Below are positions 7,182 through 12,979 of a stretch of DNA of 37,039 bases, piece by piece. The stretch is from Ruminiclostridium sp. GTDB taxonomy: Bacteria; Bacillota; Clostridia; Oscillospirales; Ruminococcaceae. The translations under genes were made by a program, and so were the position numbers. Positions within the stretch are counted from its first letter, which is position 1, and each line of letters begins with the position of its first letter. A model generated the notes under the pieces. It did not search any database, was not told the origin of the DNA, and worked only from the letters and a program-made list of their open reading frames with translations. The stretch is taken from the NCBI GenBank assembly GCA_017395555.1, contig JAFPUE010000075.1, forward strand, positions 1 to 37,039, written 5' to 3'.

Positions 7182-7885
7182 TGATCGCAATAATGAAGCG
7201 CGAGCTTTCCGCTTATTTCAAATCCCCGATAGGATATGTGTTCATCGCGGTATCCTTCCTGTTTTCGGGCTTGTTTTTCTGGTATTTCGCCCTCAGCGTG
7301 GGAAGCACGGATATTTCCTTCGTATTTCTCGGAATGTTTTATGTTTATATGATATTTGTGCCGGTTCTCACGATGCGCCTTATGGCGGACGAGAACAAGC
7401 AGCGCACCGATCAGCTTCTGCTGACTGCGCCGCTCGGGCTTATGCGCCTTGTGGCAGGCAAATTTCTTTCCGCGTATATCGTATTCATTCTCGGTGACAT
7501 CGTAATGCTGAGCTACGGCATTGTCCTCAGCTTTTTCGCGACGGTGAACTGGGCGATAATCCTCGGCAACTTCGTTGCCCTCGCTCTTATCGGAGCAATA
7601 TTCGTATCCGCGGGATTGTTCGTCTCTACTCTCACCGAGAGCCAGATGGTTGCCGCAATAGGATCCATAGCTCTCAACGCCGCCCTCGCGCTCATCAACG
7701 TTCTCTCGTCGGTGATCCCGGTGCAGGCAATATCCGATGTTATCAAGCAGCTTTCGGTTTTCGACAGATACTACGAATTCACAACCGGGATATTCAGTCT
7801 CGGCGGCGTAATCTTCTTCATAAGCGCCGTCATCATCTTCCTCTTCCTCACCGTCCGTATCCTCGAACGCCGCCGCTGGGCATGA
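7181..7885 (+). CDS. ABC-2 type permease (GldF-like)
   Basis: Membrane subunit partnering with the upstream ATPase. The 234-residue protein starts with a short amphipathic stretch (KRELSAYFKSPIGYVF), the hallmark of ABC-2 and GldF permeases, followed by about six hydrophobic segments. The last one ends at a basic tail, RILERRRWA. ATG 7181 overlaps the ATPase stop by one base, so the two are probably made at matched levels. The substrate cannot be read from the sequence. A conserved structured repeat begins directly after its stop codon (7886-7994) and separates it from the GldG-like gene. Confidence 0.85.
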   Translation: MIAIMKRELSAYFKSPIGYVFIAVSFLFSGLFFWYFALSVGSTDISFVFLGMFYVYMIFVPVLTMRLMADENKQRTDQLLLTAPLGLMRLVAGKFLSAYIVFILGDIVMLSYGIVLSFFATVNWAIILGNFVALALIGAIFVSAGLFVSTLTESQMVAAIGSIALNAALALINVLSSVIPVQAISDVIKQLSVFDRYYEFTTGIFSLGGVIFFISAVIIFLFLTVRILERRRWA

Positions 7886-7994
7886 GCGCGGAAGCCCGCG
7901 CGGGCGACTGCTGTATTTCAGAGATACATCTGCGGGCAGCCGCAGCAAGAAACGCAGTGGGGTTGGCAAAGATTTCATTGATTACAGAATGAAA
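7886..7994 (+). repeat. Structured intergenic repeat, copy A
   Basis: First of two copies; the other is at 11226-11332. It begins with a hairpin GCGCGG-AAGC-CCGCGC (7886-7901) right after the permease stop. A conserved core follows at 7910-7967: an 11-nt 5' block GCTGTATTTCA, a variable stem CTGCGG/CCGCAG (7930-7945), and a 20-nt 3' block at 7948-7967 that is identical in copy B and contains GCAGTGGGG. The 5' and 3' blocks can pair (CTGTATTTC with GAAACGCAG, one A-C mismatch). A small hairpin TTTCATT/AATGAAA follows at 7973-7994. I do not recognise it as a named RNA family. Confidence 0.7.
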
Positions 7995-8031
7995 GATTGT
8001 GTGCAAGCTAAAATTCAAGGAGTTTAGATAA

Positions 8032-9684
8032 ATGTCTGAAAATGAAGATATAAAGATCGGGCAGTCCGACGAGGTTGTAACGGAAGAGACTTCCGAAAAG
8101 CCGCAGGAGACTGCAAAAACGGCAGAAAAGCCGGTAAAAAAACCTAAAAAAGCCGGTAAAAATCCGTTTAAAAGCAGAAAATTCAAGCACGGCTCGCTGT
8201 CGGTGGTTTTCACCGTTATGTTCATCGCGGGTATCGTGCTCATTAATATCATTCTGAACCTCGTGCTCGAAAGATTCAACGTCGAAGCCGATCTCACCTC
8301 CGGCTCGATATTCACCCTCGGCGACGAGACCGTTGATTATATCAGTCACCTCGATGACGATATCAGCTTCTTCGTCACCGCCGACAAGGACGAGCTCAAA
8401 GGCGCGGGTCAGCTCTACGAGCAGACGGTTGAGTACCTCGACAGAATGACTGCGCTCAACAGCCGTTTCAGCGTAAAGTATGTGAACCTGCTCAAGGATC
8501 CCGACTTTACAAACGACTACGTCGAGACACTCCAGAATTATCAGGTCATCGTCCGTAGCGGAAAGACCGACAGATACCGCATACTCTCCATAAATGACTT
8601 TATGAAGTATAAGCTCAGCGACGGAAATACCTACGATTACAGCGAAGCGAGCATGTATGTGAACTACGGCGGATATACCGTTACCGATTATTCGAGCGTT
8701 GCCGAGGAGCAGCTTGTCTCCGCTATCATGTCGGTATCTCTCGACGATCCGACAGTCGTTACCTTCGTCAAGGGCTACGGCGAATCCAACAGCACCGCCC
8801 TCGAAACTATCCTCACCGATAACGCCTATGTGACGCAGGAAGCCGAGATCGAGCGAATTGAGGCTATACCGGAGAACACCGATATCCTCGTTATCCACGG
8901 TCCCACAAAGGATTACAGCCTCGACTCCATAACAAAGATAGATACATGGCTGTCAAATAACGGAAAATACGGCAAGAACCTTATATATATCGCAACTCCC
9001 GATACTTCGGAGACACCGAACCTCGACGAATATCTCGCCGAGTGGGGAATCGAGGTAGGACGCGGATATATCCTCCAGTTCGACGAGAACCACGCGTATT
9101 ATACCGGCTCCGCGCTCCCCGTTATGCAGGATATCGAAATGAAGACAGATACAGCATACTACGAGGCAATGAAAAAGTCGGCTGGCTCGTCCTTCATTGG
9201 CTACTACGTTCGCCCCGTTATCAAGCTCTGGGAGAACGAGGGCAACCTTGCCAACGTATCCATTGCGAGCGCTTACGGCGATAGCTGCATTATGTTCCCG
9301 TTCACTGCGGACGAGGGCTGGGCTCCGTCGGAGGATAACTTCGCGGCGTATGACGTTATAGTCGAAGCATCAAAGGTGCAGTTCGCAGACAACAATCAGC
9401 CGACATACAGCAAGGTAATTGTCTGCGGAAGTGACCAGCTCTTTACCGACTATTTCACCACCGCCTCCAATTACAGCAACGGCGAGGCTGCACTGTCCCT
9501 GTTCGATGCCAACTCCGAGAACAACGGCAAAACGATAAGCATAGTTGAAAAATCCTTTGCCGCGGAGACATATCAGATAGACCGCAGCACGCAGATCGCG
9601 ATAGGCGTTGCGTTTGCGATAGTAACACCGGTAGTCATCATAATTATCGGAATAATCGTATGGCTCAGGAGAAGAAGATTATAA
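8032..9684 (+). CDS. GldG-family ABC-system auxiliary membrane protein
   Basis: A 550-residue membrane-anchored protein of the GldG/ABC-auxiliary type. It has a Lys/Pro-rich cytoplasmic N-terminus (1-53), a transmembrane helix at about 56-76, and the family's typical juxtamembrane segment DLTSGSIFTLGDETVDYI. A large extracytoplasmic alpha/beta domain follows, and a C-terminal transmembrane helix (about 523-546) ends in WLRRRRL. In Bacteroidota GldG associates with GldA and GldF; here the function is unknown. ATG 8032 follows AAGGAG at 8017-8022. Its stop overlaps the start of the DUF4340 gene (TAATG). The gene is separated from the permease by the structured repeat copy A, unlike the tight coupling elsewhere in the operon. 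Confidence 0.85.
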   Translation: MSENEDIKIGQSDEVVTEETSEKPQETAKTAEKPVKKPKKAGKNPFKSRKFKHGSLSVVFTVMFIAGIVLINIILNLVLERFNVEADLTSGSIFTLGDETVDYISHLDDDISFFVTADKDELKGAGQLYEQTVEYLDRMTALNSRFSVKYVNLLKDPDFTNDYVETLQNYQVIVRSGKTDRYRILSINDFMKYKLSDGNTYDYSEASMYVNYGGYTVTDYSSVAEEQLVSAIMSVSLDDPTVVTFVKGYGESNSTALETILTDNAYVTQEAEIERIEAIPENTDILVIHGPTKDYSLDSITKIDTWLSNNGKYGKNLIYIATPDTSETPNLDEYLAEWGIEVGRGYILQFDENHAYYTGSALPVMQDIEMKTDTAYYEAMKKSAGSSFIGYYVRPVIKLWENEGNLANVSIASAYGDSCIMFPFTADEGWAPSEDNFAAYDVIVEASKVQFADNNQPTYSKVIVCGSDQLFTDYFTTASNYSNGEAALSLFDANSENNGKTISIVEKSFAAETYQIDRSTQIAIGVAFAIVTPVVIIIIGIIVWLRRRRL

Positions 9685-11225
9685 TGGGCAAGAATGCAAA
9701 GATAATAATTTTTTCGCTGATCGGACTTGCTGTACTCGGCGGAGTTGCAGCCGTTCTTATGCTGACGGCTCCGGCGGACAAGCAGCCGGCGGAAGAATCG
9801 GAGACCTCTGTGGTATCCGACGAAGAAGCTGCTGCAGCCGCGGCGGAGCTCGTTCTCTGCAAAAGAACCGAGACCGAAGCGGAGCGTATAGATGTCACCA
9901 ACCCTATCGGCAGCTATACGATAATCCCTGCGGGAGAAAAAGACGGCGCTGTCGAATGGACGATATCCGGGCTTGAAAATGCTCCGCTCGATACTGCATC
10001 ACTCTCCGCATCTGCGGGATATGCCGTTGATCTCGAAGCCTCGGAATTTGTCATAGAGGTCTCGGACAGCTCTGAGCTCGCGAAATACGGACTGGCGGAG
10101 CCTGCCGCGCAGATAAAGACGAAATTCTCCGACGGAACGGAATTTGCGCTCAAAGTCGGTATCGAAGTGCCAAATATGACATCTTACGTTTACGCAACGG
10201 CGGACGATAAGAAGGTCTATACCGTTATGAAGAGCAAGACCTCGGGCTATACGGGAAGCGCGCTCGGATATGTGCAGACAGAGACGATACCCGCATACGA
10301 CTCCGAAAGCGGCGAAGCAGTCGATAAAATGACGATAGAACGCATTGATCTCGAAGAGCCGATAGTAATAGAGAGCATTGAACCGGAGGAGGACGAGGAC
10401 ACGATACAGGTCTATTCGTTCCGCCTGACAAGCCCGTACACGGCTTATGCCGATCTTACGGACGCGCCGAACTTCATATACGGACTGTTCGGACTGACGG
10501 CAACCTCGGCTGAATGTGTCGATCCCGACAAAGATCAGTGGGAGACTGCCGGATTAAACAACCCAAACTGCGTTGTTACCGTCGAGACGAATGTCAAGAC
10601 CTACACGCTCACAATAGGCGCGGCTCTTGTTGAGACGACGACTGACGAGGAAGGCAACGAGACGAAAAAGCTCAACGGCTTCTACGGAGTAACGAGCGAG
10701 ATACCGAATGTCATTTACCGTTTCGACGCAAGCAACATTCCGGCGCTTACGGTACAGCCCCAGGAGATAATGTCGAAGCTGTTCCTCATGCCGTATATCT
10801 ATTCGCTGAGCTCGATAGATTACAGCGACTCCGAGGGCAGAACGATCAATCTTGGCATTGAGACGATCAAATCCGCGGACGAGGAAGTCGGCGATATCCA
10901 CAAGTTCACGGTAAACGGCGAGACATGGGACGAGCAGGCGTGCAAGGACATCTATCAATATCTGATATCCGCGTCCGGCGAAGAGCTGTATTTTGACGAG
11001 GACAAGGGCGATCTTATTGCCGAGATAGTGTATAACTACAAGAAAAAGACCGACGGCGTTAACGGCAAGGATATCGTTCGTATCTACGAATCAAACACCG
11101 ACAGAAAGATCATACTCAATCTCAACGGCGAAAATCTGTACAAGACCCGCCAGATCTACGCTACACAGCTTCTCAAGAACATCGGTAACTTCCTGACCGG
11201 CGGCGAGATAACTTTGACGTATTAA
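9684..11225 (+). CDS. DUF4340 domain-containing membrane-anchored protein
   Basis: A 513-residue protein with an N-terminal transmembrane anchor (about 6-27), then an Ala/Glu/Ser-rich linker and a long extracytoplasmic region matching DUF4340, including the TVMKSK-type strand and repeated beta-rich segments. DUF4340 proteins commonly sit next to GldG in ABC clusters, and their biochemical role is unknown. I choose ATG 9684, which overlaps the upstream stop by one base and has AGGAGAAG at 9667-9674. An in-frame ATG at 9660 precedes that ribosome binding site and is less likely. The protein probably works with the GldG-like protein outside the membrane. The second copy of the structured repeat follows directly after the stop. 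Confidence 0.85.
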   Translation: MGKNAKIIIFSLIGLAVLGGVAAVLMLTAPADKQPAEESETSVVSDEEAAAAAAELVLCKRTETEAERIDVTNPIGSYTIIPAGEKDGAVEWTISGLENAPLDTASLSASAGYAVDLEASEFVIEVSDSSELAKYGLAEPAAQIKTKFSDGTEFALKVGIEVPNMTSYVYATADDKKVYTVMKSKTSGYTGSALGYVQTETIPAYDSESGEAVDKMTIERIDLEEPIVIESIEPEEDEDTIQVYSFRLTSPYTAYADLTDAPNFIYGLFGLTATSAECVDPDKDQWETAGLNNPNCVVTVETNVKTYTLTIGAALVETTTDEEGNETKKLNGFYGVTSEIPNVIYRFDASNIPALTVQPQEIMSKLFLMPYIYSLSSIDYSDSEGRTINLGIETIKSADEEVGDIHKFTVNGETWDEQACKDIYQYLISASGEELYFDEDKGDLIAEIVYNYKKKTDGVNGKDIVRIYESNTDRKIILNLNGENLYKTRQIYATQLLKNIGNFLTGGEITLTY

Positions 11226-11332
11226 GCGCCGGCGCCGAAGCCGGCGCTGGCAGTAGCTGTATTTCACAGTTGCTTCTATGGACGGCTCTCATAGAAACGC
11301 AGTGGGGTTGGCGATATATCATTCATAAAAAG
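11226..11332 (+). repeat. Structured intergenic repeat, copy B
   Basis: Second copy of the element at 7886-7994, in the same orientation and again directly after a stop codon. It opens with a 9-bp hairpin AGCGCCGGC/GCCGGCGCT (11225-11248), different in sequence from the opening hairpin of copy A but in the same position. The core at 11256-11312 keeps the 11-nt 5' block and the 20-nt 3' block (11293-11312) without change. The middle stem is TTCTATG/CATAGAA (11274-11296), which shares no sequence with the copy A stem. Conserved ends with a base-paired but sequence-variable middle suggest RNA structure. Confidence 0.7.
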
Positions 11333-11370
11333 AAAGACCGTTGAAATTAGCAGTTTCAACGGTCTTTTTC
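11333..11370. terminator. Bidirectional intrinsic terminator after the Gld operon
   Basis: A perfect 14-bp stem (11333-11346 with 11354-11367) has a 7-nt loop TTAGCAG. It is flanked by TTTTTC on the plus strand and by a matching A run on the left, so it can stop transcription from both sides. It ends the plus-strand ABC/GldG/DUF4340 operon and could also stop readthrough from the minus-strand deacetylase. Confidence 0.9.
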
Positions 11371-11498
11371 TGAACAAATCTCTGTAATCTGTCTTCCCAT
11401 TGATGTGAACAGAATAGTAGAAACAGGGTAACAATAAGAAGAATGATGTCAATGAGTCGCCGCCTATGCAAGAGCTGTCCCTTAAACCTCACTTGTGC

Positions 11499-11655
11499 GG
11501 CGGACTGACAGCGCGGGCTACCGCGCCGCCGGCCGCGTAGGCCAAAAAATCTTGAGCGAAGCGACTTCTCTTGAAAAAACGCATCCTTGGATCCAAGGTG
11601 AAACCTTGGTCGAGCCCGGGGCGAAGCTCCGGCAGGGATTGGGACAGAGTCCCAA
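11499..11655. repeat. Array of short hairpins in the 11.4-11.7 kb spacer
   Basis: The spacer of about 340 bp between the terminator and the deacetylase stop holds no convincing gene. It holds a chain of inverted repeats: GCGCGG-GCTA-CCGCGC (11511-11526), GGCC/GGCC (11531-11543), CCTTGG/CCAAGG (11585-11598), CCAAGG-TGAAA-CCTTGG (11593-11609), CCGGGGC-GAA-GCTCCGG (11616-11632) and TTGGGAC-AGA-GTCCCAA (11639-11655). Arms at 11585, 11593 and 11604 are mutually exclusive partners. A 110-codon plus-strand frame through here (11495-11827) runs into the deacetylase gene and has no ribosome binding site, so I treat it as spurious. Such arrays look like a mobile or shuffled intergenic repeat; the function is unknown. 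Confidence 0.6.
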
Positions 11656-11709
11656 ACAGCCGAAGGCATTTTCGTACTTAATCAAAATCGGTATTTATCA
11701 ACAGATTTC

Positions 11710-12852
11710 TCACTTAATCGGCGGGACATCGTCTTCGTACTGTATCTCAACGTACTCGTCGGTGTCTGTGTCGTTATCCTCCTCGGAAGGTACGATCTGC
11801 GGGATATCCTCGTACTGCTCGGTGTAAGTTCCGCCGCAGCCATAATTCTCTGCCGCGTACACAAGAGTCATATAGCACTCCATAAGCTCCTCGTATGTTG
11901 CCTCGCGCACGGCGTACAGCTCCGCTTCGTTAAGAAACGACTTGATCTCGTCAACGAGACCAACTCTGCCAACGGAGGACAGATCGTATATCTGCTGTAT
12001 CGTGAGGTTCTCGCGCATTTTCTCGAATGCGGAGTCAAGCGAGGAATTATAGTCGCAGTACACTATCGGGAGCGATACCGAGACTGCCGGGCGGTACTGC
12101 TGAACGCCGTTCTCGTCTATGATATAATTATTTGTGAATACAACTTCCTCCGCTTTGGCAAACTCAAATCCCTTCTGTTTCAGCTCGGTTATTGTCTGCG
12201 GGAGAGCTTCCGCCGTTACCCCGCAATCGTTGTGGAACAGGATTATCGAGCCGGAAGCGGCGCTGTCGGTCACGCGTTTTCTTACGGAATCCGCGTCCGG
12301 GTCATCGAGGTCTTTGCTGTCAACGTCCCACTGAACCGGGATATACCCCATTCCCTCTATCGTGGTCAGCGTCTTGTCGTCGTAATCTCCGAACGGTGCG
12401 CGGTACAGCGTCGGATCCTTGCCGGTGAGCGCTTTTATCTTCTGCGCTGCAGATTTTGTATCAGCGATAAGATCGTTGATATTCATTCCCTTGATATGTA
12501 TGTTCTTGTCGGAGCAGTTCTGCACGGAATGTCCGGCTTTGCTCATACTGCGCACGGCATCAGGGTGCGCATCGCAGAATTCTCCCGTTACAAAGAATGT
12601 CGCCCGGACGTTCGCAGCCGAGAGTGTGTCGAGCAGCTTGTCGGTGTCGGACGCGTCCCACGCGCAGGTGAATGTCAGCGCGACTTTGTTGTCTCCGCGC
12701 TCCGCACGGCACACCGGCATTTTTCCTGCTTCCGCAGACGCGGTCACCGAGCCGAATACCGCAAAAATTATTATCAGCGCTGCCGCGAGACATACCAGCA
12801 CCGTCAGCGTTACCCTCATTATCTGCTTTTTCGTCATTGTATATACAACCAT
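11710..12852 (-). CDS. Divergent NodB-type polysaccharide deacetylase homologue
   Basis: A 380-residue membrane-anchored or secreted protein with a hydrophobic helix at about 14-37 and a NodB/CE4 domain (about 55-215). The C-terminal part of about 165 residues ends in an acidic Asp/Glu-rich tail. CE4 enzymes remove acetyl groups from peptidoglycan or related glycans. The usual first motif TFDD (or TFDxAW) reads TFTCAWD at 60-66, and the HxxxH metal motif region reads NCSDKNIH at 112-119. Several usual metal and catalytic positions therefore look replaced. The later motifs RAPFGDY (151-157), DVDSKD (176-181) and the FHND His (207) remain. It may be a variant subclass or an inactive, binding-only homologue. 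ATG 12852 fits GAAAGGA with about 10 nt spacing; ATG 12861 is too close to that site. Confidence 0.8.
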   Translation of the reverse strand: MVVYTMTKKQIMRVTLTVLVCLAAALIIIFAVFGSVTASAEAGKMPVCRAERGDNKVALTFTCAWDASDTDKLLDTLSAANVRATFFVTGEFCDAHPDAVRSMSKAGHSVQNCSDKNIHIKGMNINDLIADTKSAAQKIKALTGKDPTLYRAPFGDYDDKTLTTIEGMGYIPVQWDVDSKDLDDPDADSVRKRVTDSAASGSIILFHNDCGVTAEALPQTITELKQKGFEFAKAEEVVFTNNYIIDENGVQQYRPAVSVSLPIVYCDYNSSLDSAFEKMRENLTIQQIYDLSSVGRVGLVDEIKSFLNEAELYAVREATYEELMECYMTLVYAAENYGCGGTYTEQYEDIPQIVPSEEDNDTDTDEYVEIQYEDDVPPIK

Positions 12853-12979
12853 TTCTATCATGTCCTTTCGGTTTCGTTATTTGATTGTATTCGGTATGTC
12901 CGGACAATATGCAGTTGTTTCTTTTATTTTAACATATTGCACAATTTATGTAAATCAAAATTGTGATAAAAATGGATTA

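Follow-up and report, generated by a model that had tools for sequence, protein, structure and literature searches.

Two similar short sequences stand on either side of the gldG-DUF4340 gene pair in the stretch of 37,039 nucleotides analysed here (the window), which raises the question of whether they are conserved RNA structures, pieces of a transcription terminator or copies of a mobile repeat. The sequence-only reading had described each as a hairpin right after a stop codon followed by an identical 11-mer, a middle stem and a 3′ block, and both the copies and this order of parts were borne out. In copy 1, on the forward strand, the permease stop codon TGA (7883–7885) is flush with an opening GC hairpin, GCGCGG-AAGC-CCGCGC (7886–7901; −12.5 kcal/mol for 7886–7906), which is a type A 5′ module. 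It is followed by the conserved 5′ block TGCTGTATTTCAGAG (7909–7923) with the 11-mer GCTGTATTTCA at 7910–7920, a variable middle (7924–7948) in which CTGCGG (7930–7935) pairs with CCGCAG (7940–7945) under no family-wide rule, the conserved 3′ block GAAACGCAGTGGGGTTGGC (7949–7967), and an AT-rich 3′ end (7968–7998) carrying a 7-bp local hairpin, TTTCATT/AATGAAA; repeat coverage stops at 7999.

Copy 2, on the same strand, is built alike. The DUF4340 stop codon TAA (11223–11225) is flush with a GC hairpin (11226–11247; −19.7 kcal/mol for 11226–11250), and then come the same 11-mer as the conserved 5′ block (11256–11266), a variable middle (11267–11293) and the same 3′ block (11294–11312), with TTCTATG at 11274–11280 pairing with CATAGAA at 11290–11296. 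Directly 3′ of this copy and outside the element lies a forward-strand hairpin with a T run that resembles an intrinsic terminator (11331–11370; −21.8 kcal/mol and z −7.7 for 11325–11375). Repeat coverage around copy 2 spans 11226–11674. Part of it, on the reverse strand at approximately 11383–11506, belongs to a different core family, F3, and flanks the 3′ end of a convergent gene for polysaccharide deacetylase (11710–12861); the sequence of this F3 member is also found after B modules, described below, elsewhere. When up to three mismatches were allowed, the 19-base 3′ block matched the window exactly twice, versus no match in 100 dinucleotide shuffles. The bracketing of the gldG-DUF4340 pair that had drawn attention to the locus proved incidental: the copies stand alone, each simply coming after a stop codon, and a single longer element enclosing both genes was therefore rejected.

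Further copies in the genome and its relatives turned out to be numerous. The unit, which we call F1, consists of the 5′ block TGC(A/T)GTATTTCAGAG, about 25 variable bases (24–26 when AGAG is counted in the 5′ block, otherwise 28–30) and the 3′ block GAAA(C/T)GCAGTGGGGTTGGC; one clean empty site gives an element length of ~113 bp, and copies with the B or C 5′ module are longer. A sequence-only model made from 39 cores found at least 93 matches in the 2.6-Mb genome that contains the window (G000), 103 in a sister genome (G034) and at least 57 in a third (G082), part of these counts coming from a search with stricter filters; scoring covered up to 150 candidates in each genome. An exact search for the 14-mer GAAACGCAGTGGGG finds 25 instances in the first genome, and a reversed-pattern control finds none. 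Only 4 of 60 sampled genomes of the genus carry F1, one of them as a single copy; the three main carriers are draft metagenome-assembled genomes (MAGs) with completeness of 87% (G000), 96% (G034) and 79% (G082). F1 is a lineage-restricted repeat family of about 100 copies, carried by a few related Ruminococcus species of the rumen. The fixed end blocks stand as a family feature; where some listings show the 3′ block as invariant, this is because they were confined to copies with an exact 3′ block. The earlier statement that no named family matches also stands: Rfam gave no match at the gathering score in the whole window, and at permissive thresholds the best among the matches listed scored 25.4 bits where the cut-off is 59, with nothing credible. 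Judging from titles and the first lines of abstracts of open-licence papers, we found no report of such repeats in Ruminococcus.

The 5′ end of F1 occurs in three contexts, the A, B and C modules, and in 78 of 112 copies it is a B or C module with no opening hairpin. A hairpin at the stop codon is accordingly not common to all copies, because types B and C open with a longer and less defined 5′ stretch. The composition is modular, as at least four different cores follow one and the same module: among 134 B modules, F1 came next 112 times, F2 seven times, F3 four times, F4 four times and other sequences seven times, with F1 over-represented because the stretches were taken around F1 copies. Exchange is also seen between genomes, where half of the orthologous pairs with both sites occupied have unlike 5′ modules (15 of 30; 30 of 60 directed comparisons); copy 2 of the window, for example, is type A in its own genome and type B at the orthologous site of the sister genome. 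Orthologous sites often hold other modules or families altogether. A nested C insert is flanked by TA and looks more MITE-like.

Is the shared architecture kept by selection on RNA structure? The sequence-only reading had held that the opening and middle stems differ in sequence yet stay paired, as such selection would predict, and that the 5′ and 3′ blocks can pair with each other. Part of this survives. Both window copies fold better than their shuffles (z −2.8 and −2.7; matched by 0 and 4 of 200 shuffles, respectively), and in the opening hairpin both sides vary while pairing is kept. The latter was seen over 41 type A copies, where full pairing is partly by construction because the best stem was picked in each copy, and where several of the stems so picked are something other than the true type A hairpin; in the control, arms dealt anew gave 0.675. 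The middle stem fared otherwise, its halves pairing no better within than between copies. For 159 distinct copies (33 of 192 were dropped for an N, a missing block match or a duplicate core), the mean folding energy of the middle halves was −5.35, versus −5.22 ± 0.13 when right halves were dealt anew, and 37 of 200 rounds reached the real value or lower; with the blocks included the values were −11.96 and −11.86, and 53 of 200 rounds were as low. Dealt halves thus fold equally well, and selection on the middle stem is not supported. The blocks can indeed pair but do not covary: ten block-to-block pairs were paired in 1324 of 1560 cells, and independence of the two sides would predict 1323.0 (14 of 192 copies dropped, the remaining 178 collapsed to 156 distinct). 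RNAalifold gave −1.61 kcal/mol for 39 cores and no compensatory pair. A conserved fold of the core was rejected on these three results, and a structured-RNA reading of the core is already largely refuted. For F1 as a whole, a conserved RNA, whether a cis element or a small RNA, maintained for its secondary structure seems improbable: the shuffles and the opening hairpin speak for it, but the two window copies take different global folds, the hairpin is replaced by another module in most copies, and Rfam holds no match.

The differences between middles fit a reassortment of half-units in the genome of the window, less so in the sister genome. In a Mantel analysis, the left-right association of middle halves was weak in G000, though nominally higher than in shuffles (r 0.06; 34 of 2000 as high), r 0.52 in G034 (0 of 2000) and r 0.23 in G082 (97 of 2000), so that near-free reassortment holds for the first genome only.

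The most striking feature of F1 is its position, and the earlier placement right after stop codons was upheld for most copies. With crude ORF calls in the DNA around 112 copies, 102 had an upstream ORF, codirectional with the copy in 80 and antisense in 22, and the copy started within 25 nt of the stop codon in 65 of the 80 codirectional cases versus 3 of the 22 antisense ones. Where an ORF stop lay no more than 400 nt from a type A copy, the hairpin started between −3 and +3 nt from that stop in 20 of 39 cases, after TGA in nine, TAA in eight and TAG in three; the remaining 19 lie more than 3 nt away, many of them after another repeat module. By raw counts from these calls, F1 appears to be extragenic and enriched 3′ of genes.

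A second regularity lies downstream. A terminator-like hairpin with a T run follows the core within 100 nt in 115 of 188 copies, versus 8 of 188 mononucleotide shuffles, at a median of 26 nt into the stretch searched; 73 of 188 copies lack one within that distance. This association would be expected if F1 were part of the native terminator, as a bipartite or bidirectional module. That explanation is very improbable, however, as no T run follows the opening hairpin, copy 1 lies inside an operon with no T-run hairpin visible by eye before gldG, and a terminator-like hairpin is present without the element in both species that have an empty site at rplL.

At rplL in G000, 113 bases separate the TAA from GCAGACTCAATACACAATC (boundary read by eye), placing the element at the junction of stop codon and 3′ UTR. 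The two sister species encode an identical RplL protein and lack the element there, G034 reading TAA GCAGCTCCAATACACAATC and G082 reading TAA TCAGCAATCTGAATACACAAT. Since a multiple alignment of the region placed the 113-base insert badly, the empty site was read straight from the sequences. F1 was present at rplL in 1 of 25 among the loci listed, of 30 taken from 65 genomes with a match. At the permease stop, 30 loci were taken and 21 examined, and F1 is present in three of these 21, namely in G000, G034 and G082. In some congeners without F1 (loci L146 and L152) this permease stop is directly followed by other GC-rich sequence that looks palindromic, so stop-codon targeting, if it occurs, may extend beyond F1.

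These sites also bear on whether the repeats do anything for their host. Orthologous copies are hardly closer than random cross-genome pairs (middle 0.615 versus 0.600, 3′ block 0.881 versus 0.885; 23 of 30 pairs usable), although in two orthologous pairs the middles are more than 90% identical, and likeness through common descent at these sites was rejected. Together with the lineage restriction and the frequent occupation of orthologous sites by other modules or families, this is what purely parasitic repeats with no host effect would show, their position reflecting tolerance of insertions or the insertion bias of a mobiliser. BOX and other repeats of the pneumococcus have been read in this way, though they are considered likely to affect cotranscribed genes (PMC3049150). 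We regard pure parasitism as possible but on the unlikely side. Tolerance alone does not easily account for the 20 of 39 type A hairpins that start within 3 nt of a stop, nor for the strand bias. The fixed blocks are also retained in copies whose middle and flank have drifted apart, a pattern that concerted evolution would give as well.

What might have moved the repeats was sought among known machineries. The Y1 transposase (PF01797) was found once in G000, with internal stop codons, and not at all in G034 or G082; 19 other genomes of the genus have PF01797 matches, and the 16 of these searched for the repeat were all without it. A REP/RAYT origin was rejected because the carriers have no intact Y1 gene. 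Reverse transcriptase (PF00078) was found in none of the three carrier genomes, two of them incomplete MAGs, versus 3 of 14 control genomes, and retro-copying or derivation from a group II intron, retron or DGR was rejected for want of this enzyme in the three carriers. A phage or plasmid origin was likewise set aside: copy 1 had no match in phages, copy 2 none in plasmids, and the exact two-block pattern none in viral contigs.

F1 resembles known repeat systems in several respects. Like the REPs of enterobacteria and Pseudomonas, it comprises many short hairpin-bearing extragenic repeats, some of them just 3′ of genes. REPs are described as 20–40 bp long and GTAG- or CGTC-tagged (PMC3733652), some being associated with a tyrosine transposase (PMC2817692), whereas the F1 unit measures ~113 bp or more, combines a pair of fixed blocks with 5′ modules that can be exchanged, and shows GTAG only in some type A copies (GGCAGTAGCTG versus GGCGACTGCTG, by eye), with no tagged palindrome of 20–40 bp. 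Compared by description, BOX of Streptococcus pneumoniae (and also RUP and SPRITE) comes close: BOX is reported to be modular, interspersed, lineage-restricted, foldable and overrepresented between convergent genes (PMC3049150), and F1 resembles it in these respects. BOX varies, however, in the number of its internal boxB modules while F1 exchanges its 5′ end, and the distance of BOX to genes is given as a gradually decaying distribution (PMC3049150) whereas F1 often starts at the stop codon. As MITEs are, F1 is small, non-autonomous and present in many copies, but the imperfect inverted repeat formed by its two blocks is internal rather than terminal and its 5′ end is exchangeable; target duplication at the single clean empty site, rplL, is no more than 0–2 nt.

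The observed features are the number of copies, their strand bias and flush position, the exchange of modules and the empty site in sister species. The explanation we favour, with somewhat more than even confidence, is that F1 comprises non-autonomous, interspersed, modular 3′-UTR repeats of a REP/BOX-like kind that act through structure at the stop codon. Each copy is put together from interchangeable parts: first a 5′ module, then a core whose variable middle is enclosed by two fixed blocks, and last an AT-rich end. The family may have spread by some process of transposition or gene conversion. Most copies lie on the sense strand, many precede a terminator, and the 5′ module begins at the stop, so that they would be part of the mRNA 3′ UTR. 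REPs less than 16 nt from a stop codon are reported to downregulate translation (Liang 2015, cited in PMC12306157). A stop-flush GC hairpin or equivalent module might act like the E. coli REPs found no more than ~15 nt from a stop, either by delaying the release of ribosomes or as a barrier to 3′ exonucleases; the output of the upstream gene would therefore change. In the window, copy 1 would exert this effect inside the operon, where it separates the ABC permease from gldG, and copy 2 would do so at the operon end. A small mobile structured element, one of the options of the sequence-only reading, is supported by this analysis.

A bolder and rather doubtful extension is that an insertion system delivers several families of modular, non-autonomous repeats precisely to the sense-strand junction of stop codon and 3′ UTR and keeps swapping them there. 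The 3′ UTRs of this clade would then be renewable cassettes, in which the landing site is fixed while both the 5′ module and the core can be exchanged.

If the insertion mechanism sets the position, F1 would be a mobile element that targets the end of translation and is not explained by the two machineries looked for, Y1 transposase and reverse transcriptase. If selection sets it, the copies (~100 per genome in two species, at least 57 in a third), together with the sites that are empty or swapped, would form a natural replicated experiment on stop-flush structure and gene expression outside E. coli. Much of the intergenic DNA in these rumen bacteria is a mosaic of repeats, with consequences for assembly, for binning and for the discovery of RNA families. 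F1 is best described as a new REP/BOX-like family of 3′-UTR repeats that probably act through their structure at the stop codon and may tune the ends of messenger RNAs.

Both copies of the repeat in the window, one starting at 7886 after the permease stop and one at 11226 after the DUF4340 stop, were found with the layout that the sequence-only reading had given them. They are members of a larger family, here called F1, and not an isolated pair. Searching the window's own genome (G000) for the 14-mer of the 3′ block gave 25 exact hits (24 full cores and one truncated, L009), and a sequence-only model of 39 cores gave 93 matches there. The same model gave 103 in Ruminococcus RUG12593 (G034), with at most 150 candidates scored in each of these two genomes. 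When 60 sampled genomes of the genus, the window's own included, were surveyed with stricter filters and at most 81 candidates scored, 57 matches were found in Ruminococcaceae UBA3215 (G082) and a single one in G077; apart from these two, G000 and G034, the remaining 56 genomes had no match. The lone G077 copy (L072, contig C53) may lie on a contaminant contig. Across 84,980 species genomes, a collection that may omit records of, or very near, the window's own genome, the exact two-block pattern occurred only in RUG12593 and UBA3215.

In total, 192 copies of F1 were counted in 168 merged stretches (528.8 kb). The core opens with the 5′ block and closes with the 3′ block and an AT-rich tail; between the two blocks lie 24–26 variable bases, or 28–30 when counting starts right after GTATTTC. 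Three different 5′ contexts are all joined to the core at the same point. Among the 112 copies examined first, 33 carried a GC hairpin (type A), 59 a module ending CCCCCTTTAAAAAAGGGGG..GACACCCTAAATAAA (type B), 19 the B module with a nested ~63-bp palindrome between TA and TA (type C), and one another context. The B module preceded F1 in 112 of 134 cases, the other core families F2, F3 and F4 in 7, 4 and 4, and other cores in 7, a tally in which F1 is over-represented because the stretches were fetched around it. By eye, F2 frequently lies 3′ of F1 in inverted orientation and has its middle in common with F1. A purine-rich GAGAGATTTTGAGAGATTT tract, often starting right at the stop codon, was seen 5′ of the B module in L040, L026 and many B-type copies. 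In L004 and L025, joint F1/F2 units are tandemly duplicated 3′ of the core with breakpoints near GGC, pointing to slippage, to recombination between modules or to artefacts of the assembly.

An upstream ORF was present in the fetched DNA for 102 of the 112 copies, codirectional in 80 and antisense in 22; F1 started within 25 nt of the stop in 65 of the 80 but in only 3 of the 22. Of 39 type A copies having an ORF stop within 400 nt, 20 had the hairpin starting at −3 to +3 nt of the stop, with each of the three stop codons represented, and many of the other 19 were preceded by another repeat module. A terminator-like hairpin followed within 100 nt 3′ of F1 in 115 of 188 copies (8 of 188 when shuffled). 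In the window, copy 1 sits between an ABC-2-like permease gene and a gldG-type gene on the same strand, and a strong terminator-like hairpin lies 3′ of copy 2 (11331–11370). A second mosaic, an F3 core with more modules, occupies 11383–11674 on the minus strand, 3′ of a convergent polysaccharide deacetylase gene; the 116-aa ORF within the repeats (11319–11669, minus strand) is probably not a real gene.

The rplL protein is identical across the three main carriers, G000, G034 and G082, and only G000 has F1 there, where it fills the 113 bases separating TAA from a 3′ UTR recognisable in the other two (boundary by eye); 24 of 25 rplL loci compared lack F1. At the permease stop (TGA or TAA), F1 is present in the three carriers and absent from 18 of 21 loci examined (30 fetched), some of which bear other palindrome-like sequence. 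Such GC-rich sequence directly follows the stop in L146 (G011) and L152 (G072), and begins a few bases after it in L156 (G083); part of that in L146 resembles a module seen 5′ of F1 in L006 and L029. The DUF4340 stop carries type A in the window's own genome and type B in G034, and the two copies had unlike 5′ modules in 15 of the 30 orthologous pairs in which both sites are occupied. Orthologous copies were barely more similar than random cross-genome pairs, with the blocks staying at 95% and 88% (23 usable pairs). From the differing modules and this low likeness, we infer that sites are re-occupied, converted or rapidly diversified. A counter-example is the pair L053 (G000:C86) and L052 (G034:C84), in which 241 bases around the core are identical while 1081 aligned upstream bases are just 86% identical, reflecting recent transfer, conversion or strong constraint.

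The sequence-only reading saw in the two copies a pattern expected from selection on RNA structure. The z scores for folding are good in both window copies (−2.8 and −2.7), but the two folds differ. Covariation was present in the opening hairpin, though its stems were selected as the best per copy; when the whole family was compared, the middle stem did not covary, and nor did the pairing of the 5′ and 3′ blocks. What is conserved in the blocks is therefore their sequence, which fits a recognition site or frequent conversion. Within the middle, the left half was only weakly linked to the right in the window's own genome (r 0.06) but strongly in G034 (r 0.52). By eye, conservation guided by structure is more plausible than in F1 itself for a palindromic module found in type C or downstream stretches, among them L008, L015 and L026: a small hairpin is followed by an outer stem enclosing a GCGCGCACGATGCGCGC-like inner hairpin, the outer stems vary (GGAAGTTTC, GTTGTCAC, TGACCGC, GTTGCTGC) while the architecture is kept, and one copy is nested within another.

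F1 is a real family, and our database and literature searches turned up no description of it; it is best supported as a REP/BOX-like non-autonomous repeat family living in 3′ UTRs. Y1 and RT genes, the two gene types searched for as a mobiliser, do not account for it. E. coli REPs lying no more than 15 nt from a stop, as described where PMC12306157 cites Liang 2015, offer a model of the expected effect; by analogy, a GC hairpin that abuts the stop may affect ribosome release and mRNA stability. The kind of element is a known one; what is unusual about F1 is that its 5′ ends are exchangeable and that it sits flush with stop codons on the sense strand.
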